Assembly (NCBI GenBank): GCA_025451355.1
Contig: JANWKN010000153.1
Coordinates: forward strand, 1 to 35,828
Direction: 5' to 3'
From: Pseudolabrys sp.
GTDB lineage: Bacteria > Pseudomonadota > Alphaproteobacteria > Rhizobiales > Xanthobacteraceae
Length of the DNA: 35,828 nucleotides
The notes beneath the pieces are model-generated. The model searched no databases. It worked only from the letters and a program-made list of their open reading frames with translations, and had not been told where the DNA came from. Shown here piece after piece: positions 715 through 35,673 of this stretch. The translations under genes were made by a program, and so were the position numbers. The first letter of the stretch is position 1. Each line of letters begins with the position of its first letter.

Positions 715-1995
715 TCACGCCCTCGCCGTCTCAAGCTGAACCACGTTAGCCGGCGGTGGTGTAATGATATCGCGCAGGCGTTTGGCCCATAGATCGAGCG
801 CTTGACGCTTTTCATCGAGATAGGTGTGCCGGTCGTAGACCTTGTGAAGCCCTGGTTTTGTGTGTGCGACCACAAGTTCGCGAATCAGATCGGGTACTGG
901 AAGTGCCGACAGTCCGGTCCGCATCGTGCGGCGGATGTCGTGAATGACAAACGGCGGCAAGGGCCGTCGTAGCTCGCCCCGCATTTTCACATCAAGCGCG
1001 TGCTTGGCTTTGGCGAACCCGCCGACGACTGGTCGTACCCCATAGCTTGCCGAGAACAAATAATCGCCTTTAGTGAAACGTGGCAGACTTTCCAAAATTC
1101 TTGCCGCCTCATCCGATAGCGGCACGACATGACCAGCGTCCGATTTCATCCTTTCGGCGGGGATTTCCCAAAGTTTTTTAGCTAGATCGAACTCACTCCA
1201 TCGAGCCTCCGCTACCTCGCTCTTGCGCTGACCCGTAAGTGCGAGCATTTGGAACAGGGCCCCGTAGGGGTAGCCCATGGCCTCGCTCGCCTTCCACAAA
1301 GCCCGCAGCTCGTCTTCATTGAGAACACGTGTGCGAGCCTTTTTGGCACCAATAATTTCCTTCGGCCTCATGCGGTCACAGGGGGAATTTTCCAGACCGT
1401 AAACACCCCTACTAATCGCCCAATTAAAGATGCGGCGGGCATAGCCCAAAACGTTATGCGCCTGATACGGCTTTCCGGCATCGACAAGGCCGTCAACGAC
1501 TGCCAACACGTCACGGCGGGTAATCTCAGTGATCGGGCGAGCCGCCCAGCGCGAAACAAACTCTCGTCGAATGACTCCTTCGGCTTTTTTGAACTGGCGC
1601 GTCTTTGAAAGGTGGCGTTTAAAGAACTCCTCGGTTACAGCCAGAAAGGTGTTTTCCTGCCGCAGCGCGGCGTGCCGGGCCGCTTCCTCCGCCGACTCCG
1701 GGTCGATGCCCTTGGCGATCAATTTAATCCAGCCTCGGGCCTTTTCTCGCGCCTCCTCTAAACTCACCCGGTCGTAAACCCCGAGCTTGCGGCGCGTCGG
1801 GTTCTTGCTGCCGGGATAGCGAGCCGTCAGGACGAATGTTCGTCGTCCGGTGTCGGACACGCGCACTCCGAAGCCCGGAAATCCAAGATCCCAAACGTCC
1901 GTATGAGTGCCGGGCTTTGTCGGCCTTAGACTTTTTAGCGTGCGGTCTGTAAGGTTGCGCTTCATGGCCTGCCCCATTTGGCAACGGGTTGGCAA
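715..1995 (-). CDS. tyrosine-type site-specific recombinase/integrase (P4-like, N-terminal DUF4102-type domain)
   Basis: 426 aa; N-terminal LTDRTLKSLRPTKPGTHTDVWDLGFPGFGVRVSDTGRRTFVLTARYPG; catalytic-like motifs TGQRKSEVAEARW, HDIRRTMRTGL and a C-terminal YDRHTY. The true start may be the internal MKRNLTDRTLK. Confidence 0.95.
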   Translation of the reverse strand: MPTRCQMGQAMKRNLTDRTLKSLRPTKPGTHTDVWDLGFPGFGVRVSDTGRRTFVLTARYPGSKNPTRRKLGVYDRVSLEEAREKARGWIKLIAKGIDPESAEEAARHAALRQENTFLAVTEEFFKRHLSKTRQFKKAEGVIRREFVSRWAARPITEITRRDVLAVVDGLVDAGKPYQAHNVLGYARRIFNWAISRGVYGLENSPCDRMRPKEIIGAKKARTRVLNEDELRALWKASEAMGYPYGALFQMLALTGQRKSEVAEARWSEFDLAKKLWEIPAERMKSDAGHVVPLSDEAARILESLPRFTKGDYLFSASYGVRPVVGGFAKAKHALDVKMRGELRRPLPPFVIHDIRRTMRTGLSALPVPDLIRELVVAHTKPGLHKVYDRHTYLDEKRQALDLWAKRLRDIITPPPANVVQLETARA

Positions 1996-2430: not shown

Positions 2431-2451
2431 GGCGCGGCCCAGGGCCGCGCC
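2431..2451. terminator. hairpin between convergent hspQ and the ialB-like gene, probable bidirectional terminator
   Basis: GGCGCGGC-CCAGG-GCCGCGCC perfect stem of 8 bp (10 bp palindrome), A-rich on the left (minus-strand T run). Confidence 0.7.
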
Positions 2452-2485
2452 TTCGCGCTTGATCGGACGAAAAAACCGGAAGCGC

Positions 2486-3310
2486 TTATTTTTTCTGCGC
2501 CGGTGCCGGTGCCGTCGGGAACGCCGGAGCCGCGGGTGCCTGGCTCTGCTGGCCCTCGAGCTTCTTGCGTGCTTCGTCGGCTTTCTTCTGGAGCTCTTCC
2601 TGCAACTTGCGTTGCTGCTCCTCGAACGCTTTCGGATCGGTCGCCGGGCCGTCGTACGCTTTGGCAAAATCGCTCAACGGCAGCGGTAGGCTGATCGGCG
2701 TTCCCTGCATATTGATCGCCTGCACGATGATGTTCTGTCCCTTCTTCATCTTGCCGATCAGGTCGTCGGTCACTTGAAAGTCAGCCATGCAGCCCACCGG
2801 GAAGCAGATGCTGTAGGGCGATTGCGCAGGTTGCCCCTGATCGATCAGCATGCGGGTGCCATGCGACAGCTGCATGCCGAGCGGAACGGTCACACGCAGC
2901 ACCTTTTGTCCGCCTTCCGGCTCGAACAGCTGAACGATCGCGACCGGCATGCCGTTTTCCAGCCGGCCATCTTTGGTAATGACGCAGACCTGTTTGTTCT
3001 GGGTATCCGGTCCCTTACCGCAGACCTTCATCCACGGCGAATACATGAGCTGCGGCTGATCACCGCCCGCCTGCTGCTGTCCGGGTTGTCCGGGTTGCCC
3101 TTGCTGACCCTGCTGCGGCGGTTGCGCCGGCTGACCCTGCTGCGCCGCGGGCGCCTGTTTCTGGGCCGGGACCTGTTTCTGCGCAGGCGCTGCGGGGGCC
3201 TTTTGCTGCTGCTGGGCGAGCGCCGGTGCGGCCATGAGCAGCGCCGCCAACGTTCCGGCCACGGTCAGCGCCCGGCCCAAGGGCCGGGTCGAAGCAATCC
3301 GATGATCCAT
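2486..3310 (-). CDS. invasion-associated locus B (IalB) family protein with signal peptide and Q/P/A/G-rich linker
   Basis: 274 aa; signal peptide ...LAALLMAAPALAQ; core WMKVCGKGPDTQNKQVCVITKDGR...MPVAIVQLFEP...LPLSDFAKAYDGPATDP matches the IalB family. Confidence 0.9.
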   Translation of the reverse strand: MDHRIASTRPLGRALTVAGTLAALLMAAPALAQQQQKAPAAPAQKQVPAQKQAPAAQQGQPAQPPQQGQQGQPGQPGQQQAGGDQPQLMYSPWMKVCGKGPDTQNKQVCVITKDGRLENGMPVAIVQLFEPEGGQKVLRVTVPLGMQLSHGTRMLIDQGQPAQSPYSICFPVGCMADFQVTDDLIGKMKKGQNIIVQAINMQGTPISLPLPLSDFAKAYDGPATDPKAFEEQQRKLQEELQKKADEARKKLEGQQSQAPAAPAFPTAPAPAQKK

Positions 3311-3486
3311 TGCGATTGTCCCTTATTCTCCGCGTTCGCGACCAATGGCTGCCGAACGGCGCTTTCAGGCGGCTCTCTCCGTGTGAAATACGGCGGGAGC
3401 GTGACACTCGGGGTGCCTCATACCCGAAATGCCTGCAATAAAGCCACGAATGCACTGAAAATGCCGCCCGGTCGGACCCTGGGCGT

Positions 3487-5376
3487 ATGATAAATTTACA
3501 CAAAATTGGATCAAATCGCATTCGAACGCCTTTCGCGCTGAAACGTGTTCCAACCGCGCTGACGCAGCTGCGGGCGTCCCGGCGTGCAGTGATATTTGGC
3601 ACCCTGCTGGCCGCGACTGGCGGCCTGCGTCTCGCGCGCTCTGAAGCTGCGTCGCACGCTCTAGCCATGCACGGCGAACCTGAATGGGGTTCCAATTTCA
3701 CCCATCCAACCTATGCGAATCCCGCGGCGAGCAAAGGTGGACAGCTTGTGCACGGTGTGCTCGGCACCTTCGATTGCCTCAACCCGTTCATCGTCAAAGG
3801 CATATCCGCAGCCAATATGCGCGGGTATGTCATCGAGAGTCTGCTCGCACGCGGTTATGACGAACCATTCACGCTGTACGGCCTGCTCGCCGAAAGCGTC
3901 GAGACGGATGCTGCCCGCAACTATGTCACTTTCACTCTCAATCCGGCAGCGCGGTTTTCGGACGGCAGGCCGGTAACACCCGCAGACATAATCTTCTCAT
4001 GGGAGCTCCTGCGCGACAGAGGCCGGCCAAATTTCCGCACGTACTACATCAAGGTCGTCAAGGCTGAACAAACCGGAGAACGCACCATCCGGTTTGACCT
4101 CACTGGCGCCGACGATCGCGAGCTTCCGCTCATCATCGGTCTGATGCCGGTGCTAGCAAAGCACGCCATCAATCCCGCGACCTTCGAGGACACGAGCTTC
4201 GACCCGTTGCTCGGTAGCGGACCCTACGTCGTCAGCGCGGTGAAACCCGGCGACACCGTCACATTCAGGCGCGACAACAATTATTGGGGACGCGATCTCC
4301 CAATCAATCGCGGCTTATGGAACTTCGACACTATCCGCTTCGACTATTACCGCGACGGCAACACGCACTTCGAAGCTTTCAAGAAAGGTCTTTACGATTT
4401 GCGCGTCGAGACCGATCCCGGCCGTTGGCAAATGGCTTACGAGTTTCCGGCGCTTCGGGCTGGCCATGTTGTCAAGGAAGACATGCCCTACGGACTGCCG
4501 AAAGGCATGAACGGTCTTGTCTTCAACACGAGACGGGCGATTTTTTCCGATGTACGGGTGCGCGAAGCCATCCTGCAATTGTTCGATTTCGAGTGGATCA
4601 ACCACAATTATTTCTTCGACCTGTACAAGCGTACGGCCAGCTATTTCGACGGCTGCGATCTCTCCGCATACGGCGTCGCCGCTAATGAACGAGAGCGCGA
4701 ACTGTTAAAGCTTTTTCCGGATGCGGTGCGCGCCGACATCATGGACGGTATGTGGTCCCCGCCGGTCACGGACGGATCAGGACGCGATCGTCGCAACCTC
4801 GGCCACGCTTTCGCGCTGTTCAAGGCTGCCGGCTATGAACTCAAAGGCACCCAACTGACCAATGTCGGCACCGGCAGGCCTTTGTCGTTCGAAATCCTCA
4901 CCACGACTCGCGATCAGGAGCGGCTCGCGCTCGCATTTGTGCGCAGCCTGAAGCGGGCCGGAATCGAGGCACGAGTACGGACCGTCGATGCAACCCAGTT
5001 CGAGCGCCGTCGGATCGCTTTTGATTTCGACATGATGGAGTATCGCTGGGAACAATCCCTCTCGCCTGGCAACGAGCAATTGTTCTACTGGGGCTCGGGG
5101 GCAGCCGATCAACAAGGCAGCCGCAACTATATGGGAGTCAAGTCGAAGGCGGTCGACGCAATGATCGCTGCGATGCTTGCCGCCACGGGCCGCACCGATT
5201 TTGTCGCGGCGACCCGGGCCCTAGACCGCATCTTGCTCTCCGGCTTTTACGTCGTCCCGCTCTACTTCCCGCCGGTACAATGGGTGGCTCGCTGGACGCG
5301 AATCGAGCATCCCTCACATACCTCCCTTTTTGGCTACTTGCCGGAAACGTGGTGGCAGACGGATCTGAAGCCTTGA
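3487..5376 (+). CDS. extracellular solute-binding protein family 5 (YejA-like oligopeptide ABC transporter substrate-binding protein)
   Basis: 629 aa; SRRAVIFG signal region (Tat-like); MHGEPEWGSNFTHPTYANPAASKGGQL..GTFDCLNPFIVKG; PADIIFSWELL; C-terminal VPLYFPPVQWVARW. Confidence 0.93.
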   Translation: MINLHKIGSNRIRTPFALKRVPTALTQLRASRRAVIFGTLLAATGGLRLARSEAASHALAMHGEPEWGSNFTHPTYANPAASKGGQLVHGVLGTFDCLNPFIVKGISAANMRGYVIESLLARGYDEPFTLYGLLAESVETDAARNYVTFTLNPAARFSDGRPVTPADIIFSWELLRDRGRPNFRTYYIKVVKAEQTGERTIRFDLTGADDRELPLIIGLMPVLAKHAINPATFEDTSFDPLLGSGPYVVSAVKPGDTVTFRRDNNYWGRDLPINRGLWNFDTIRFDYYRDGNTHFEAFKKGLYDLRVETDPGRWQMAYEFPALRAGHVVKEDMPYGLPKGMNGLVFNTRRAIFSDVRVREAILQLFDFEWINHNYFFDLYKRTASYFDGCDLSAYGVAANERERELLKLFPDAVRADIMDGMWSPPVTDGSGRDRRNLGHAFALFKAAGYELKGTQLTNVGTGRPLSFEILTTTRDQERLALAFVRSLKRAGIEARVRTVDATQFERRRIAFDFDMMEYRWEQSLSPGNEQLFYWGSGAADQQGSRNYMGVKSKAVDAMIAAMLAATGRTDFVAATRALDRILLSGFYVVPLYFPPVQWVARWTRIEHPSHTSLFGYLPETWWQTDLKP

Positions 5377-5380
5377 GGCC

Positions 5381-6655
5381 TTGCCTATGATCCTGGGCGA
5401 AAACCCACGCGCGGTGGGCACGGCGGCGACACTCGACGATCTTTCGTCGCGCCGGGGTGCGTCATCCCGAGTCGCTCGCTCTGGCCGACCCGCCGAACCG
5501 TCAAGGCTTCACCATGGGAGTGCCGCGCACGCTGAGTTTCGCGCAAACCGATCGCGCGATCTCGGCTTTCGCGGCAAGACTACGCGGCCTGGGGCTGCAA
5601 ACCGACAGCGCCGTGGCTATCCAGCTTCCGAACACCGTGGAAAGCGCCATCGCTTTCCTTGGCGTGCTCCGGGCGGGTATGATTCCGGTGCCATTGCCGC
5701 TGCTGTGGCGGCAGGAGGAGATCGTTGCCGCGCTTCGGCAGGTCGGTGCCAGGACCATCGTGAGCAGTTCGCGCATTGGTCAGGTCGCTCAAATCGAAAT
5801 CGCCATGCAGAGCGCGGTCGAATTGTTTTCGATCCGCCATGTCTGCGGCTTCGGGCCTGATCTTCCAGACGGCATTGTCCCGCTTGACGATATATTTCTT
5901 CCCGAAACCACCGAAGCCACCGTGAGCGTTTCGCGGATTGGTCCTGCCGCGGCGCATGTCGCCGCCATTACATTCTACCCAGACCCCAACGGGTTCGCGC
6001 CGATCGCGCGCAGCCACGTGGAGCTGGTTGCGAGAGGAATGGAAATATTTCTCGAGACCGGCGCCACATCCGACACGCCAATATTGTCGACGATACCAAT
6101 CGGATCATTCGCCGGCATCGGGCTCACAGTTGTGCCCTGGCTCTTGTCCGGCGGCGCATTGCACCTGCATCACAGTTTTGATCCTGAGTCTTTCGGTGCG
6201 CAATGCCGCGCAGTTGCCGACGGCACAGTGATCTTGCCTACTGCCGCCGTTGCGGCCATAGCGGAATCGGGGTCACTCAAGGACTCAACACAGACTGTTG
6301 TCGCTCTCTGGCGCACGCCGGAACGCTTTGCAGCCGCCGAGTCATGGGAAGGCCGGTCGAGCCTCGTCGACGTGACGAGCTTCGGCGAAACAGGCCTGAT
6401 CGCCGCTCGTCGTGGCGGAGACGGCCTGCCAGTGCCAATCCCGATCGGTCCCGTCGCTTCGACCTATCGGGCTCCTGGGGCGCCTGTTGTCATTGAAACA
6501 AGTGTCATGCCTGCTGGAACGCTGGCGTTGCGCGGCCGCATGGTCCCCACGCATGCCTTGCAGCCACATGCTGGCCGACCGCTTCCCGATCACACCGGTT
6601 ATGTCGATACCGGCTTTGCCTGCAACCGGGGGCGAAACGCCAAGACATTGATTGT
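5381..6655 (+). pseudogene. AMP-binding (acyl-CoA synthetase-like) gene, frameshifted near 5441 and apparently truncated at the 3' end
   Basis: N-terminus MILGENPRAVGTAATLDDL lies in one frame (ORF 5381..5860); the continuation FRRAGVRHPESLALADPPNRQ...TDSAVAIQLPNTVESAIAFLGVLRAGMIPVPLPLLW lies in another (ORF 5457..7310); runs without a stop into unrelated signalling-protein sequence. Confidence 0.75.
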
Positions 6656-7290
6656 TACGGCTCTGCTGTGCCTGCGGGTCGCCACCTTGTGCGGCCCGGT
6701 CGTACCCGTGATCGCGCGCGTCCGCGGTGACGAGGATGCAGCCGTTCCGATTGCGCTCCCATCTGACGGCGCTCTGCCCGTTGGACGGTTACTTGCGCGC
6801 CTGCAGTTTGCGACGCGCGTCCGTGCCCTGCATGCCACCGTCCTGCGCCGCATCGATCTGTTCGCATCGCACGACGGCAAATTGGCAAATGTTCCCGGTC
6901 GGCGATGCTCTCGACGACGCAACTGTGCCGATCGCCGGACGCGGTCGGCTTTACCCGACCCTCAGTGTCGCAATGGGCGAGCGAGTCAGGATCGCCGGTG
7001 CACTCAGTGTCGAGGCCGCGGCCAGACACCTCAATACCCGGGATATCGATGGCATCGTCGTTGGCGATGGATTCTCCCCGCGCATGGTCGAGGCATTCCT
7101 CACCGTACTCGCGCAAGACCCAAGATTCTGAGACATTCCGGTAGCGGTGATCGGCGAAGCGCCGCCGGATTTCGCCGACGCGCTTCCCAACATCGATCAG
7201 GTTGCCGCGGATCCGCGGCGCCTCGTCGCCCGAATGGTGCCACTGGTGCGAATGCGCGCATTCGAAGGACGCCTCAAGCGAATGCTCAAT
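6656..7290 (+). pseudogene. N-terminal/middle part of a GGDEF-type (diguanylate cyclase-like) response regulator, frameshifted and interrupted
   Basis: VARVRGDEDAAVPIALPSDGALPVGRLLARLQFATRVRALHATVLRR in frame 3, then VGDALDDATVPIAGRGRLYPTLSVAMGERVRIAGALSVEAAARHLNTRDIDGIVVGDGFSPRMVEAFLTVLAQDPRF(TGA)DIPVAVIGEAPPDFADALPNIDQVAADPRRLVARMVPLVRMRAFEGRLKRML in frame 1; matching C-terminus found at 13617. Confidence 0.8.
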
Positions 7291-7535
7291 ACTCTTCCGG
7301 GCGTACTTAGTGAAACGGTATTGTGCCAATCAATATTGTTTTGCTGGCGTTGCTCGATTTGCTGCGCGTGGCCCGTGAGAAGTGTGGGCGCGACGGCAGC
7401 TATCAGTTGAATGGTCTCATTGAAACGCGTGGCCGCTGCCGGGGAAATAGCTTTGCGTTAATCGTGTACTTTAGGCGGCCCGGTTTGCTGGAAATGCGAA
7501 TCAATTTAATTTCGCGCCAATTGGAATGGCGAAAC

Positions 7536-7778
7536 ATGCCGCGCAAACGTGGAGCCAGCCTGTTCATCGGCCTTAACCGTCACCGCGTCAGCGCGACCGA
7601 TCTGAAAAGCAGACTCGCGGAACGTGATCGACGGCAGTTAGCTGATAACAGAACACCAGCGGAAAAATATCTTGGCGATCCGTCGCCGGATCGGTCAGCG
7701 CTGGCACGGGGGCTCCCCACAGGCATCGCGCCGGAGTTTCAAGCACGGGGGCAGCGGGTTGATCTGTGGCGACGGTGA
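7536..7778 (+). CDS. hypothetical protein
   Basis: C-terminal part of ORF 7323..7778 from ATG 7536; coding-like ATDLKSRLAERDRRQLADNRTPAEKYLGDPSPDRSALARG. Confidence 0.4.
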   Translation: MPRKRGASLFIGLNRHRVSATDLKSRLAERDRRQLADNRTPAEKYLGDPSPDRSALARGLPTGIAPEFQARGQRVDLWRR

Positions 7779-7844
7779 CCTATCAAAAAAATAGATCGCA
7801 TCGTAAGATTGATGCGAGCAATAAGCATGAGCCAAGGCTGGCGG

Positions 7845-8213
7845 ATGAAAAAGATATTGATCTTGGGTTTCCTGCTGCCCGGTTTGCAGCCATTATCGGC
7901 TCAACCTTTGCCGTCCTATGATCTCAGTTATTACGACAGCCCACAGTGCATAAAAGAAAAAGCTAATAGCTTTGCAAAGAACACACTAATACTGGACAAA
8001 ACAGACGAAGCCGTCGGCAAATCAATATGCCAGGTAGCGAAGGCTGCCGGGCCGTCGTCACACGAAGACATGGCCAAGCGGTGGGAGACAATTCCATCTG
8101 AGATCCGGTCGAAGTGCATCAACACATTAGAAAATGACCGAAAGACCGGGCGGATACCAACAATGGACTATGTCATGCTTGGCACTTGCATTGACTACTT
8201 GATGAAAAAATAA
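7845..8213 (+). CDS. small secreted hypothetical protein
   Basis: MKKILILGFLLPGLQPLSAQPLPSYDLSYYDSPQCIKEKA... signal peptide plus four Cys in the mature region; within ORF 7809..8213. Confidence 0.65.
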   Translation: MKKILILGFLLPGLQPLSAQPLPSYDLSYYDSPQCIKEKANSFAKNTLILDKTDEAVGKSICQVAKAAGPSSHEDMAKRWETIPSEIRSKCINTLENDRKTGRIPTMDYVMLGTCIDYLMKK

Positions 8214-8281
8214 CGCTAGCTAGATCACTAGCGTCGGCTGGCCCTCCCGCAATTCAGGTTCAACGGTATCGCGCCCGAGAA

Positions 8282-8446
8282 ATGCAGCCGCTTCCGCCTG
8301 TGCTTCCCGTTACAACGGCCCGGCCCTGCTCCGGCGGGTCCGCAATGCCTGATTGGCTCGGTGAACTTACAGCCGAGTGCGCGAAGAAGATTGCCCGCAA
8401 CATGAATGATCCGTGCGGTGCACGGTGCCGGGATTTGGTGCTGTAG
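8282..8446 (+). CDS. short hypothetical ORF (54 aa)
   Basis: Manual translation MQPLPPVLPVTTARPCSGGSAMPDWLGELTAECAKKIARNMNDPCGARCRDLVL; coding-like but short. Confidence 0.25.
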   Translation: MQPLPPVLPVTTARPCSGGSAMPDWLGELTAECAKKIARNMNDPCGARCRDLVL

Positions 8447-8603
8447 CCAGTCATGTCCGCTTTACCGCTTCCGAGAAAGAGCGATGAGTTGGATCAATAC
8501 CGGCGGTCAATCTTGGGTTGATGACCGCAGGCGAAGCGCAACACCTAAACTTACCAAACATTCAAAACTTGTCGGAGGCCGAAGTGCGGCCCCCGACATC
8601 CAA

Positions 8604-8846
8604 TTATCGTTTCTTCTTTTTCGCAAAAATCGCGTTCCAGTTATCCTTATAAGCTTTTGAAACCGGTTTTTGGCCTTCGCCCCGACTATAACCTAAAGGT
8701 GAGTCGGAAGCTTTCTCGCTGCCCTCAGCCTTGGAGAGGTCTGCATCTGACTTGATCTTGTTTTTCGGCTGGCCCTTGTCTTTTTTCACAGCAGTCTCAT
8801 TTTTGGGCGCGGAGCTAGTTTCAGTTTTCTTATCGTCACTGGCCAT
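8604..8846 (-). CDS. small lysine-rich hypothetical protein
   Basis: MASDDKKTETSSAPKNETAVKKDKGQPKNKIKSDADLSKAEGSEKASDSPLGYSRGEGQKPVSKAYKDNWNAIFAKKKKR; internal ATG of ORF 8604..8957. Confidence 0.6.
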   Translation of the reverse strand: MASDDKKTETSSAPKNETAVKKDKGQPKNKIKSDADLSKAEGSEKASDSPLGYSRGEGQKPVSKAYKDNWNAIFAKKKKR

Positions 8847-8985
8847 CGTGTTTCCTAAAGCTGATTTGTCTGAACAATCTGAACAAGATGAACCTCCTCT
8901 GATTAGAGAGCTATTTGGGTTGATACGCCTTGCGACGCGGTGAGAGCAACAGGCCATCGAGCGGACTCTCTCCCGCAGTCGTGGA

Positions 8986-9059
8986 ATGTCTAAATAGGGT
9001 CAATGGCGGACGTTTTGCGTTGCAACTCGGCATGTCCGCTAAGTGCCAATAGCGGACAT
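8986..9059. repeat. double-hairpin intergenic repeat, copy 1
   Basis: Degenerate first hairpin (ATGTCTAAATAGGGTCAATGGCGGACGT) and intact second ATGTCCGCTAAGTGCCAATAGCGGACAT (9032-9059), 46 nt apart. Confidence 0.8.
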
Positions 9060-9190
9060 CGCATCTCTGCCCCTTAGCACTGCTTGAAACGACCGTTGAG
9101 ACTTACGATCACAACCATTCGCGCATGAACGTGGCGTAGGCGACCGCAGTGGCACTCACTTTGTCTTAATCCGGCACTAGTCTTCCGCTT

Positions 9191-9840
9191 TTAAGGAGTC
9201 CGCCGAGGCTGCGGCTTGTTCTTCAGGCTTGGCAGCCTTGGCCCGCAACGCTCCACACTCGCAGCACCGACGACGTTACCCCCAATGTCTTGAAAGACTT
9301 TCTGCCATCCGGGGTTGTCGTCTCGGTACCAGCACCAATGTGTGGCCGAGTAGTTTGCCCAATCGGTGCAGCGTTTTCGACATTGGCGAGCGAGCACGAT
9401 CTGGCGTTGACCGCATGTAAGTCCAGTTCGTTGGTCCTCGGCCCTATTGTGATCGTTTTCAAGAAAGCACGAGAATAATATCGCGTTCGCGGTTAACGCG
9501 TTCAAACATTGATTGATCTTAGCGTCGACGTCTGTTTGTGTCGCAGTTACCGTTTGGCATAGCGGCGCCTGCGCGGGCGGAGAGATCATAGTTCCTCTGG
9601 CAAAGCCGGACGAGCCGCTATTAGAACCCCCACCCCCGCTGGTGGGGGGCAGGCGATTTGAGCGCAGGTGTTCTGGGTACCGTTGTGCACGCACCGATTA
9701 CCGTCTTGCACGCAGCGGTCCGGGCAGCAGACTTGGGCAAATGCAGGCGTGATGACCGCGAATGCTAGAAATACAATTACCACCTTTAAAAACCGAATGA
9801 TGTTTCCCCCTCGTTGCAGGTAGCCAGTTTCGTTAGTCAT
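9191..9840 (-). pseudogene. secreted Cys-rich hypothetical protein split by a frameshift in a G6/C6 run
   Basis: N-terminal half in ORF 9586..9984 (FLKVVIVFLAFAVITPAFAQVCCPDRCVQDGNRCVHNGTQNTCAQIAC), C-terminal half in ORF 9191..9694 (PPTSGGGGSNSGSSGFARGTMI...CGQRQIVLARQCRKRCTDW...); the frames join at 9644-9649. Confidence 0.6.
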
Positions 9841-10076
9841 TCGAAAAGGCGGCCAACGGCCGTTGGTACTCCTCAGCAGTAGCCGAGTGACAAATCCGAC
9901 GACCGGAAACCTCGGTTGCTGTGCGTGTGACTGCAAATGGCCAACACGCCACGGCTGAACCGGCAACGATTTTGATGAACTCACGTCGTCTCATCGCCGC
10001 CCCAAGGACCTCAAGAAATCCTACTCAGTCTTCAGTGTTGTGACGCGTAACTTTGGCCTCAATAACCGCTCCGTGG

Positions 10077-10147
10077 ATGTCCGCTTTGGGTCAAAAGCAG
10101 ACATTTGCGATGCAACAAGGCATGTCCGCTAAGTGCCAATAGCGGAC
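10077..10147. repeat. double-hairpin intergenic repeat, copy 2
   Basis: ATGTCCGCTTTGGGTCAAAAGCAGACAT then ATGTCCGCTAAGTGCCAATAGCGGAC, 45 nt apart. Confidence 0.85.
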
Positions 10148-10308
10148 GAGACCCGTGAGCAAGCGATGGCTGATTTCAGGGCACGGCGGCAATCACTCAC
10201 ACGTTTGTTCTTGCGGTGAAAGCGCGAATCTGACTGGTAACAGTTTATTAAAAAAAGCGCCTCAACCTAAGCAGGTGAGAAAGCTGCGCCAAACACCGAG
10301 GCAGGCTC

Positions 10309-10524
10309 ATGCAAACCGCACCACCGCGTTATCTAGCACCTCCTGGACGACACGCAATCATCGATGCCCTCGCACCAATAGTGCAGTCATGGTTCGCGGA
10401 CACATTAAGTGAGCCGATCCCCGAAGAGCTAGTCGCGATAGTCCAACGGATCGATGTCCAGTCTTTTGCGGATGATCGGCAGGAAGTGCACCGCAAAGAC
10501 GTATTGGCTAACGCATTGGCCTAA
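10309..10524 (+). CDS. small hypothetical protein, possibly NepR-like
   Basis: 71 aa; IVQSWFADTLSEPIPEELVAIVQRID resembles the NepR anti-sigma core (...vvsEPlPerf..LL..Ld). Confidence 0.45.
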   Translation: MQTAPPRYLAPPGRHAIIDALAPIVQSWFADTLSEPIPEELVAIVQRIDVQSFADDRQEVHRKDVLANALA

Positions 10525-10648
10525 CCAAATTTCTGGCTGGTCACGGCTTAAAAGGCGCTCTTAGCGGCAAAGTTATGAGATACGTCTCCGCGAGCATCTG
10601 GTTTGGACTCGGTGCGTTTCAACGGGCCAAGCGATGCGAGCCGAGCCG

Positions 10649-10719
10649 ATGCCCGCTTTACCTCCAAAAACAGACAGTGAGGCCGCAAGCTATGTCCGCT
10701 TTGTGCCAATAGCGGACAT
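10649..10719. repeat. double-hairpin intergenic repeat, copy 3
   Basis: Degenerate ATGCCCGCTTTACCTCCAAAAACAGACAGT then ATGTCCGCTTTGTGCCAATAGCGGACAT (10692-10719), 43 nt apart. Confidence 0.75.
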
Positions 10720-10726
10720 TATGCGT

Positions 10727-11431
10727 TCAGGTAGGCTGGGTTGTAGAGCTATCGGCTCTACCTCTCATTTCGAGGGTTACAAGCCTCGCCAACAACGTGG
10801 CCGGATAAAGTTGACCAATTATGCTTTCGATATTGCACAGGCTCCGCGCGAACGGATGCACTGGAACGACATCACCGTAGCCAGTCGATGTCAGCGTGAC
10901 AAAGCTGAAATAGAAAACCGAACTGGCGAGTGACCGATCGTCTTCAAATGCTATCCCGTTGATCGCACCTGGAAATGATAGGCCGACAAAAATATACAGT
11001 GTTGCAAAGGCCACAGCGATCAACAGGTACACAAGGATCGCTCCGACAATTCGGTGGTATGTGACACGGCCTTGCCTGAACACGGCCTGAGCGACCACGA
11101 TTCCTAGAGTGACCGCGATGACTAACCATGCGCCAGCCAATATGTGGAGGTGGAAGGCCAAGGGGTAATAGATTCGCAGGAGAAATACGGCAAGGTTGGC
11201 AACAAGCGCAATCGACATCAAAACGAGTGCAGTCGGGTTGTCGGAAATGAACAGCATGCTCCCGATGATTGCCAGCAATCCACCAATAGCAAGTCCATGG
11301 AAGACGGAAATACCAACTGCCTGGAGTGTGGCGAAGACAAATATTATAAGCGTCATCACCGCGGTCAGTACCGTGAGTAGCGAGTCGCTACGTGCATGCA
11401 AGCGCAAGTCGCTAATGCGGTTTAGCAACAT
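10727..11431 (-). CDS. two-pore-type (Ion_trans_2-like) potassium channel family protein
   Basis: 234 aa multi-TM protein with selectivity filter SFVTLTSTGYGDVVPVHPFARSL. Confidence 0.88.
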   Translation of the reverse strand: MLLNRISDLRLHARSDSLLTVLTAVMTLIIFVFATLQAVGISVFHGLAIGGLLAIIGSMLFISDNPTALVLMSIALVANLAVFLLRIYYPLAFHLHILAGAWLVIAVTLGIVVAQAVFRQGRVTYHRIVGAILVYLLIAVAFATLYIFVGLSFPGAINGIAFEDDRSLASSVFYFSFVTLTSTGYGDVVPVHPFARSLCNIESIIGQLYPATLLARLVTLEMRGRADSSTTQPT

Positions 11432-11558
11432 CGCCGTTACTCCAATTGCGAAGAATCCAATCGATTATCGCTGACGCGGCTTAATATTTTTCTAATGAAA
11501 ATGAGGCGGATCGCTGGACCGGTGATAAAGGGTCCCAAGTAGATTTATCGACGTGACG

Positions 11559-11629
11559 ATGTCCGCTTTGGGTCAAAAGCGTTAGCGGCATGTCGATGCG
11601 ATGTCTGCTTTACCCCCAAATGCGGACAT
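11559..11629. repeat. double-hairpin intergenic repeat, copy 4 (degenerate)
   Basis: ATGTCCGCTTTGGGTCAAAAGCGTTAGCGGCAT then ATGTCTGCTTTACCCCCAAATGCGGACAT, 42 nt apart. Confidence 0.75.
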
Positions 11630-11640
11630 TGGTCCCCCAG

Positions 11641-11916
11641 TTATTTTCCCGATAAATCCAATTCCAGAACATCGACGGTGCGGAAGTCCGGACCAATGCG
11701 TGTCGTCATTCCGGCGTGACGCAAACGGTGTCCCGCCTTTTCCAACTGAACCGGCAACTGCGATCCTTGCTCGACCTCAATGCGGACGATTTTGCCGAAA
11801 GGTGGTGATGTGACCCAGCCGCCCTGCCCGTGAACGTAGTCACTAATCGCCGTCCACAATCGGCTCCTCGCTGCCGATACTCGGGCGGTCGATTCTGACT
11901 GCGGTTTGTCGGCCAT
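11641..11916 (-). CDS. hypothetical protein, last ORF of the small-ORF array
   Basis: 91 aa MADKPQSESTARVSAARSRLWTAISDYVHGQGGWVTSPPFGKIVRIEVEQGSQLPVQLEKAGHRLRHAG... Confidence 0.6.
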   Translation of the reverse strand: MADKPQSESTARVSAARSRLWTAISDYVHGQGGWVTSPPFGKIVRIEVEQGSQLPVQLEKAGHRLRHAGMTTRIGPDFRTVDVLELDLSGK

Positions 11917-11925
11917 CGGTGGCGC

Positions 11926-12129
11926 TCAATTGATAGTGCCGTTACTACGGTGAAAGTGCGGAGCTACGTTTTTGGCGTGTTCATCCCGTGCGGCTCTTAT
12001 CCGTTGCTCGGTCAGTCCGGTGATCGTTGCAAACTCGCGAAGCTTTTCCTCGTCGAAAAATAACGGCAAAAACATATCCCAGAATTCCGGATTCGACATT
12101 AGCCGCTCATGTTGCTCTGACGAATTCAT
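11926..12129 (-). CDS. hypothetical protein
   Basis: 67 aa MNSSEQHERLMSNPEFWDMFLPLFFDEEKLREFATITGLTEQRIRAARDEHAKNV...; ATG overlaps the stop of the upstream reading frame (CAATGA). Confidence 0.6.
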   Translation of the reverse strand: MNSSEQHERLMSNPEFWDMFLPLFFDEEKLREFATITGLTEQRIRAARDEHAKNVAPHFHRSNGTIN

Positions 12130-12307
12130 TGTGGTTCCTTATCAGGAATCAAACGACCGCGCAGTTTGCGCCAGACAGTTTCTTCGGGGATGTTCGCGGC
12201 TTCGGAAAACTCGCGCACCGTTTTTCGATGTGGTCGGGAGCGTCGGATCGCAACACCTCCCCGAGTGTGTGCCAAGGATCATCCTTCTGCGACTTTGGCG
12301 GCCTCAT
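12126..12307 (-). pseudogene. small HTH-like protein, reading frame broken at an A5 run
   Basis: MRPPKSQKDDPWHTLGEVLRSDAPDHIEK in one frame, TVREFSEAANIPEETVWRKLRGRLIPDKEPQ* in the next, joined at 12221-12225. Confidence 0.5.
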
Positions 12308-12418
12308 CGTCTGGCCGCGCTGACGATCTGACGCCCCGGAAATCTCTGGCGACAAGCGCTCTCATAGCTACCGGCAAGCATTTCGGTGAATAGCGGGTAC
12401 CAAGTCGGTTCGCTTGTT

Positions 12419-12547
12419 TCATCTTCGGTTTGTGACGGTCGCGGAGAAACCGGGCGCACTGATCGTCATTTTCCAGTCACCGCGACTGCCGTGGACCGTA
12501 AAGCCGAATGTAAAAGTGTCGATCTGCACTTCGCCCCGGATAAGCAT
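12419..12547 (-). CDS. tiny hypothetical ORF
   Basis: Manual translation MLIRGEVQIDTFTFGFTVHGSRGDWKMTISAPGFSATVTNRR*. Confidence 0.3.
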   Translation of the reverse strand: MLIRGEVQIDTFTFGFTVHGSRGDWKMTISAPGFSATVTNRR

Positions 12548-12558
12548 CCGTCACCACA

Positions 12559-12808
12559 TCAGGAATTATCTTTAAAAAGCTGGATCGTCACGTAGCTGCA
12601 TTGTCGGTTAACTTGTCGAGGATGATCGCCAACGCGCTCCCCGACCCGCTCGCATCGGAGGCCGAGTTCATTCAACTTCGGAAGGACTTCTTCTCACCTC
12701 GGATTGCGGTAACTCGAACCGGAAAGTCGGTCCGGCAATTACACGGCCGCCCAACTCGGTGACCACGCCTGCGACAGTGCGCGGATCACTAACCGATAGT
12801 TTCGCCAT
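12559..12808 (-). pseudogene. small hypothetical protein with a single-nt frameshift
   Basis: MAKLSVSDPRTVAGVVTELGGRVIAGPTFRFELPQSEVRR then VLPKLNELGLRCERVGERVGDHPRQVNRQCSYVTIQLFKDNS* after a +1 shift near 12685-12694. Confidence 0.45.
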
Positions 12809-13003
12809 CGCCGGTCCTCTGAATTCGCATCTAGTTGCTCTATGGTCCTATTGGGGGTAAAACGTGAACAAATGTCAAATCCTGAGTATTCCCAATGGGG
12901 GACCATGACATGCCAAAGCAGGCTGGCTGGGCAAAAACGAGGACGCGACCCGCATGCCGCATTTCGATCACTCACCCCCAAGCAGCAAAATGAGGAGATG
13001 ACC

Positions 13004-13396
13004 ATGGCCAGCGATGATTTTTACAGTTTCTCCGCACGGCAACGCCTCCAGCAAATTGACGCGGGTCGAGCGCAAGCTCTGCCCGACCTAGAGGCTGCCA
13101 AGGCGAATGCCGATTACGACAGCGCCGGTCAGGCTGTGCAGCAAATCGCCGACCTCGATGCCGAGGCAAGAAATGTCGCCGCGCTCCATGAGCAGTACGT
13201 CGCCAGCCAGACGCCGCCCCCGCAACAGGAACTCAGTGCCGCGGAACGCGCAGCCCGACCTTGGGACAAAATGACTTGGGACGACGCGCTCGATCTTGCC
13301 CGCACCTCTCAATTCGGAAAAGATCTCGACCATAACGATCCGCACGTTCAAGATGGTTATCGCGAAGTCATGCGCCGCCGCGCCTGTGGAGAATGA
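13004..13396 (+). CDS. hypothetical protein
   Basis: MASDDFYSFSARQRLQQIDAGRAQALPDLEAAKANADYDSAGQAVQQIADLDAEARNVAALHEQYVASQ...; GAGGAG 6 nt upstream of ATG 13004; inside ORF 12842..13396. Confidence 0.7.
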   Translation: MASDDFYSFSARQRLQQIDAGRAQALPDLEAAKANADYDSAGQAVQQIADLDAEARNVAALHEQYVASQTPPPQQELSAAERAARPWDKMTWDDALDLARTSQFGKDLDHNDPHVQDGYREVMRRRACGE

Positions 13397-13555
13397 GCAG
13401 TCCAAGCAAGGCTAGGTGAGGCTCTGACAGGCACGGCCACAACCGAGGATGACCGGGGCAGCACCGAGGATCACCGGGCGAGAATTGAGGGAATGTGATG
13501 GTCGCGAAGATTAAATCCGAGTGGCAATCCGGTGGCAATTTCTGATTTTGTTCTC

Positions 13556-13583
13556 ACCGGCCACTGCGTAAGTGGCCGGTTTT
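13556..13583 (+). terminator. Rho-independent-like terminator at the island right end
   Basis: CCGGCCACT-GCGTA-AGTGGCCGG perfect 9 bp stem followed by TTTTG. Confidence 0.75.
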
Positions 13584-13616
13584 GTTATCAAAAACTAAGG
13601 CGACGGTTTGCAGTCG

Positions 13617-14074
13617 AGCGAATGCTTAAATCGCTCGACACCGATGGCATTTTCGATCCCCAGACCGGCTTGCTCACGCGCGATTCATTCTGGCGCGATT
13701 TGAAGAAAGTGATGGCTGAATCGGCTGACCGCAGCCTGCCGCTTTCGGTCGCTCGTTTTTCATTCGCCAGCACAACAGACGAACGTGCCAGACTCGATGC
13801 CACACGATTGATGACCCGCTTGATCCGCAATATCGACTTTGCGGTGCGCGATGAAGATGGCGCCATCCTGATTGTCTTCACCCAGACCGATCTGCGTAGC
13901 ACCAATGTGATCGCGCGTCGCATTGCAGGGATGCTGAGGAACAACATGCTGACGCCGCCCGGCGCAGGAGAGCCTCCAAGTGCCCGCGTTACACTGGCAA
14001 CGTTGAAGATTGGCGACAAGCTCGACACCCTGATGCTGCGCGTGGCCGGCGGCCGGATGGTTGCGGCGGAATAG
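13617..14074 (+). pseudogene. C-terminal fragment of the split GGDEF-type gene (degenerate GGDEF motif)
   Basis: ERMLKSLDTDGIFDPQTGLLTRDSFWRDLKK...LMTRLIRNIDFAVRDEDGAILIVFTQTDLRSTNVIARRIAGMLR; no own start evident at the junction; upstream part of ORF 13532..14074 overlaps the terminator. Confidence 0.75.
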
Positions 14075-35299: not shown

Positions 35300-35554
35300 G
35301 GAAGTACTCTTCTGTGCCCCGATGCCGGAGCAGCGATCAGCTACTCTCGGTTCGTCTAATCACGCTGCAATCGTAACACGCTCCTCCCAGACCACGATTG
35401 TGAGCGTAATCAATACGCTGTGATCCGTCTGCAATGATGTGTAGCCGCATCCGCTTGCCGGACGATTTGCTCGATATGACAAGGATGGCTTCACGTTTAC
35501 ATGCCGCCTTCCGTGCTCACGTGCGCGGACGAAGTGATCGAATAAGCCGGGCCA

Positions 35555-35673
35555 ATGTCCGCCTCTGGCACAAAGCGGACATGGGCTAGTGCACCGCACA
35601 TGTCCGCTTTTGGAGTAAGAGCGGACATGCCGTTTTGCGGTGCAAATGTCCGCTTATGACCCAAAGCAGACAT
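35555..35673. repeat. triple-hairpin intergenic repeat, copy 5
   Basis: ATGTCCGCCTCTGGCACAAAGCGGACAT (35555), ATGTCCGCTTTTGGAGTAAGAGCGGACAT (35600), ATGTCCGCTTATGACCCAAAGCAGACAT (35646); start spacing 45 and 46 nt. Confidence 0.88.

Follow-up and report, generated by a model that had tools for sequence, protein, structure and literature searches.

A 6.3-kb stretch of a Pseudolabrys sp. contig is foreign DNA lying within a regulator gene that is intact in all 19 related genomes examined. The stretch is likely what is left of a site-specific tyrosine-integrase element that entered this protein-coding gene, lost its integrase and decayed, and so came to resemble a cis-mobilizable element (CIME). 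The insertion, the direct repeat that bounds it, a short signature at its right end and the absence of an integrase were all observed directly. By the window we mean the whole 35,828-nucleotide stretch of DNA that was analysed.

7287..13616, no strand assigned: inserted island (empty site in 19 relatives and composition)

The boundaries of the island were defined by comparison with relatives. When 7.7 kb around the island was searched in 61 genomes, DNA similarity to congeners broke off at about 7289 and restarted at about 13614, and the left and right matches abutted in the target genome with an overlap of 11-16 bp, a pattern seen repeatedly across same-genus genomes. Inspection at the single-base level revealed an uninterrupted junction in 19 of 19 congeners, each with a single ORF spanning it (...AFEARLKRMLKSLD...). 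Relative to this empty site the insert is clean, with 6330 bp between the repeat copies, and its G+C content is 54% vs about 61% on either flank. The initial annotation had placed an element within the KRML codons of a gene intact in relatives and had set as a test the presence of a collinear intact site in related genomes; the 19 empty junctions and their spanning ORFs bear this out. The join error that it named as a refutation is unlikely, because the two halves of the gene and the two copies of the repeat follow one another on a single contig in the expected order.

In relatives, the gene order comprises a family-5 solute-binding protein, an AMP-binding protein, a regulator of about 420 aa and a DsbA-like protein, and this order is kept in the window.

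5391..6662, + strand: AMP-binding (acyl-CoA synthetase-like) gene with its C-terminal part deleted (PF00501, E 3.2e-22)
6664..7286, + strand: left half of the regulator, residues about 72-275 of about 420 (tblastn with intact relatives)
13617..14074, + strand: right half of the regulator, degenerate GGDEF end (similarity to relatives)

The AMP-binding gene is homologous up to residue 436 of 515 of a separate gene in one relative (L149). Since this homology stops at 6662 and that of the regulator begins at 6664, at residue 72, the alignments indicate that the two genes are fused through a deletion of about 1.4 kb relative to L149. The fusion (5391-6664) forms one hybrid ORF, which annotation would list as a single protein. 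The left half of the regulator is further damaged: its reading frame shifts near 6890, and a TGA interrupts it at 7129-7131 (tblastn with intact relatives). With the insertion and three further lesions at the locus, the regulator gene is dead. The earlier description of a split GGDEF-type gene read as one protein therefore needs some revision: a regulator of about 420 aa is indeed cut by the island and is a single ORF in all 19 relatives, but the AMP-binding part belongs to a separate upstream gene and the GGDEF label is tentative, with a match in the right half of 13.8 bits vs a cut-off of 23.8.

The ends of the island carry the following features.

7277..7286, + strand: left 10-bp repeat copy AGCGAATGCT, attL (sequence and empty-site comparison)
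13617..13626, + strand: right 10-bp repeat copy (sequence and empty-site comparison)
13613..13639, no strand assigned: attR core GTCGAGCGA-ATGCTTAAA-TCGCTCGAC, a 9-bp perfect inverted repeat (inverted-repeat scan)
13556..13580, + strand: terminator-like hairpin of 10 pairs (hairpin scan)
13521..13539, + strand: integrase-end signature GTGGCAATCCGGTGGCAAT (motif searches of the genome collection)

The direct repeat consists of 10 identical bases, and no third copy is present on either strand of the window. When a register slack of three bases was allowed, 33 of 200,000 randomly drawn pairs of sites shared a run of equal length. In its extended form, TC[A/G]AGCGAATGCT[C/T]AA, the repeat is identical at 14 of 16 positions. 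The repeat may originally have spanned 13 bp, with a mutation in the right copy accounting for the mismatch, as many relatives carry CTC at the mismatching codon. At the right junction, the arms of the 9-bp perfect inverted repeat surround 9 bp, and arms of this length occur at 0.017% of the positions in the window; the inferred empty site with the same centre has five contiguous pairs and 7/9 in total. Tyrosine integrase sites usually consist of inverted core sequences flanking a short overlap. The island core may also resemble an anticodon stem-loop. Regarding the right-end terminator that the element had been proposed to bring along, a terminator-like hairpin was found there, yet shuffles yield 0.7 such sites by chance.

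A 10-bp direct repeat flanking a simple insertion is also the typical product of a transposase, and we therefore considered a transposon or IS-type insertion with a 10-bp target-site duplication whose transposase was later lost. The island has no terminal inverted repeats, with a score below the shuffle mean, and no transposase in any of its six frames. Such an event would furthermore leave the inverted attR core and the integrase-end 19-mer unexplained, and we regard it as unlikely.

The exact 19-mer GTGGCAATCCGGTGGCAAT, a motif selected after inspection of the island end, occurs once in the source genome and at 16 other loci in the genome collection. It lies directly 3' of a tyrosine-integrase ORF end at five of these 16 loci (L124, L128, L129, L131 and L134), and a tRNA gene is found less than 100 bp beyond it at seven (L123, L124, L128, L129, L131, L135 and L136); several other exact matches fall within ordinary genes and look like chance. 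Allowing one mismatch in 300 family genomes produced 11 additional matches vs one for the reversed control. Within this set, the order integrase end, motif, tRNA was present in L138, L139, L140, L147 and L148, the motif was found with tRNA-Thr in L115 and L143, and 7/11 matches had a tRNA 30-60 bp onward, although the exact and one-mismatch sets overlap (e.g. L143/L123 and L115/L135) and are not fully independent. In the congeners L143 and L115, the 19-mer stands 32-33 bp before tRNA-Thr without a preceding integrase, which suggests further integrase-less island ends. A light search of the literature found no description of the 19-mer.

The spacing around the motif was also compared. Seven distances from the integrase stop to the motif were measured, of which six are 20-22 bp and one is 10 bp. 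From the motif end to the anticodon, tRNA-linked elements span 65-89 bp, and the island spans 77 bp from the motif end to the direct repeat; the second end of motif-linked tRNA elements (L152-L154) was not located within the contigs, so that their core position is presumptive. Contig C16 of the same MAG also encodes an intact integrase of 416 aa that shares 60% identity with the L148 enzyme; tRNA-Thr comes next, together with a less strict version of the motif.

A looser motif, TTGCCA-N5-TTGCCA, was rejected as a signature because it has many matches inside ordinary genes of the genus, and the full 19-mer was used instead. The looser sequence is present 15 bp before the start of an intact tyrosine integrase ORF of the window (715-1995, - strand), and on contig C103 (L082) it recurs ahead of an integrase that is truncated. 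The ORF at 715-1995 ends beside an HspQ-like gene, and positions 1-2060 of the window, which contain it, are the end of another, distinct integrative element; DNA similarity of the window to relatives starts only at about 2097.

The position of the 19-mer also bears on the illegitimate repair of a staggered break, in which foreign or rearranged DNA would have been captured, the repeat would represent fill-in, and the 19-mer would have arrived by chance with the island DNA. The locus is rearranged in other ways too, and repeats and partial genes make up a mosaic insert. However, the 77 bp between the 19-mer and the precise boundary fall in the range found in integrase elements, and the orientation is theirs as well. 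This would have to be a coincidence, and we regard the scenario as highly improbable.

In the preferred reading, a tyrosine integrase would have recombined a short core on the element, AGCGAATGCT and probably as much as AGCGAATGCTCAA, with its identical counterpart in the regulator gene, leaving two core copies as attL and attR. Elements with such a right end normally carry an integrase gene that reads outward to the attachment site and ends about 20 bp before GTGGCAATCCGGTGGCAAT. This gene would then have been lost, both attachment ends would remain without a recombinase, and the cargo would have broken down, most of it being lost. We infer that a tyrosine integrase was responsible, that the island once carried its gene and lost it by deletion, and that the island is now immobile.

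Besides the selection of the motif after inspection of the island end and the unlocated second end of the motif-linked tRNA elements, two observations count against the tyrosine-integrase account: the element entered a protein-coding gene instead of a tRNA, and the island has no detectable integrase trace. Six-frame Pfam scans of the island with stops read through gave no PF00589 match, in agreement with the initial annotation, which had recognised no recombinase gene inside, and a DNA profile of integrase 3' ends gave no match in the island. A frame reading TEDDRGSTEDHRARIEGM and then a stop, which ends 22 bp before the 19-mer at the usual spacing, was tried as an integrase remnant and rejected, as the 3'-end profile does not match it. 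The missing recombinase had been called unusual. It is absent, but given the 19-bp signature retained at the right end, which at other loci comes after tyrosine-integrase genes, its absence does not point to a novel type of element.

The presence of both ends without an integrase trace would also fit a non-autonomous element that never had its own integrase and was moved in trans by a resident one, such as that at the tRNA-Thr gene on C16, and a compatible-looking integrase is indeed resident in the genome. Against this, no second copy of the island exists in the source genome or its relatives, and the cargo appears decayed, so that we give such an element little chance. We consider it most improbable that the island is an active non-autonomous element with attachment ends only, borrowing the integrase of tRNA-resident islands; if true, this would allow it to enter those protein-coding genes that imitate an anticodon stem-loop in their sequence.

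The contents of the island are mostly short or broken ORFs and repeats.

7352..7432, + strand: small CxxC-type ORF, first half (homology to an intact copy)
7824..8213, + strand: orphan ORF between the CxxC-type halves, predicted secreted small protein (prediction)
8350..8443, + strand: small CxxC-type ORF, second half (homology to an intact copy)
8604..8846, - strand: lysine-rich 80-aa ORF (DNA relatives in three congeners)
10076..10147, 10649-10720 and 11559-11629, no strand assigned: three island copies of a dispersed palindromic repeat of about 70 bp (many copies in the genome)
10727..11431, - strand: ion-channel protein, Ion_trans_2 (Pfam E 5e-10)
11641..12129, - strand: two small hypothetical ORFs (distant relatives for the 91-aa one)
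13004..13393, + strand: orphan 130-aa ORF (protein searches)

The ion channel is the sole Pfam match above cut-off in the six-frame scans with stops read through, and its ORF has DNA relatives in Bradyrhizobium-like genomes. Two Bradyrhizobium-like genomes contain distant relatives of the 91-aa ORF, one copy being located 7.5 kb from a tyrosine integrase. The 130-aa ORF at the right end has no relative in 44 congeners, genome contigs, viral contigs or plasmids. About 0.9 kb separates the halves of the CxxC-type ORF, indicating that the island is itself interrupted. An intact homologue lies on contig C157 of the same genome, adjoining a broken integrase. There, at 2446-3530 (L071), a frameshifted integrase fragment adjoins an enolase gene and the intact CxxC-type ORF, an arrangement that we read as another decayed island.

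Apart from the short repeats and the ion channel, the whole island has no DNA relatives in plasmids, phages, 44 congeners or 398 genomes of the order. As to phage structural or replication genes that would mark a prophage, nine ORFs tested gave no PHROG match of note, and the island had no phage DNA match. Six ORFs tested for defence cargo had no PADLOC match, and NCBIfam likewise gave none. The repeat of about 70 bp is composed of two GTCCGC...GCGGAC palindromes, with a further copy at 35554-35673, dozens elsewhere in the genome and others in further families of the order. It may be undescribed, because the consensus parts of Br-REP1 and Br-REP2 (PMC5082802) read differently.

Among known systems, CIMEs share with the island the retention of attL and attR, the absence of a recombination module, small size and decayed cargo. 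A CIME would also be mobilised in trans by, or derive from, a related element whose att sites match; the source genome contains a resident integrase of the motif-linked family (C16). In contrast to CIMEs, the island has no tandem partner element and lies in a protein-coding gene, and any mobilisation of it is hypothetical. The tRNA-targeting tyrosine-integrase islands of Xanthobacteraceae (L124, L128, L129, L131, L138, L140 and L147, together with C16) carry the 19-bp signature near their outer end at a similar distance from the attachment core, but they keep an integrase and adjoin tRNA genes, neither of which applies here. The usual tRNA targets of islands are described in the Islander study (PMC4383910), and tyrosine-integrase islands inside protein-coding genes are known as well. 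The dusA-associated genomic islands (PMC4482086), for instance, are tyrosine-integrase islands that enter a conserved site within a protein-coding gene; unlike the present island, they use another target gene and have the integrase as their one universal feature.

Apart from its end signature, the island is a case of unremarkable decay in the genome of an uncultured species of Xanthobacteraceae. We regard it as old and probably stranded, one more instance of a known and common type of enzyme-driven mobile island, and the signature is its only less expected feature. Through this short signature, a recombinase-less island can be assigned to a mechanism. In Xanthobacteraceae, GTGGCAATCCGGTGGCAAT and its near variants mark integrase 3' ends and the tRNA-side ends of islands, and they could help to locate other integrase-less islands.
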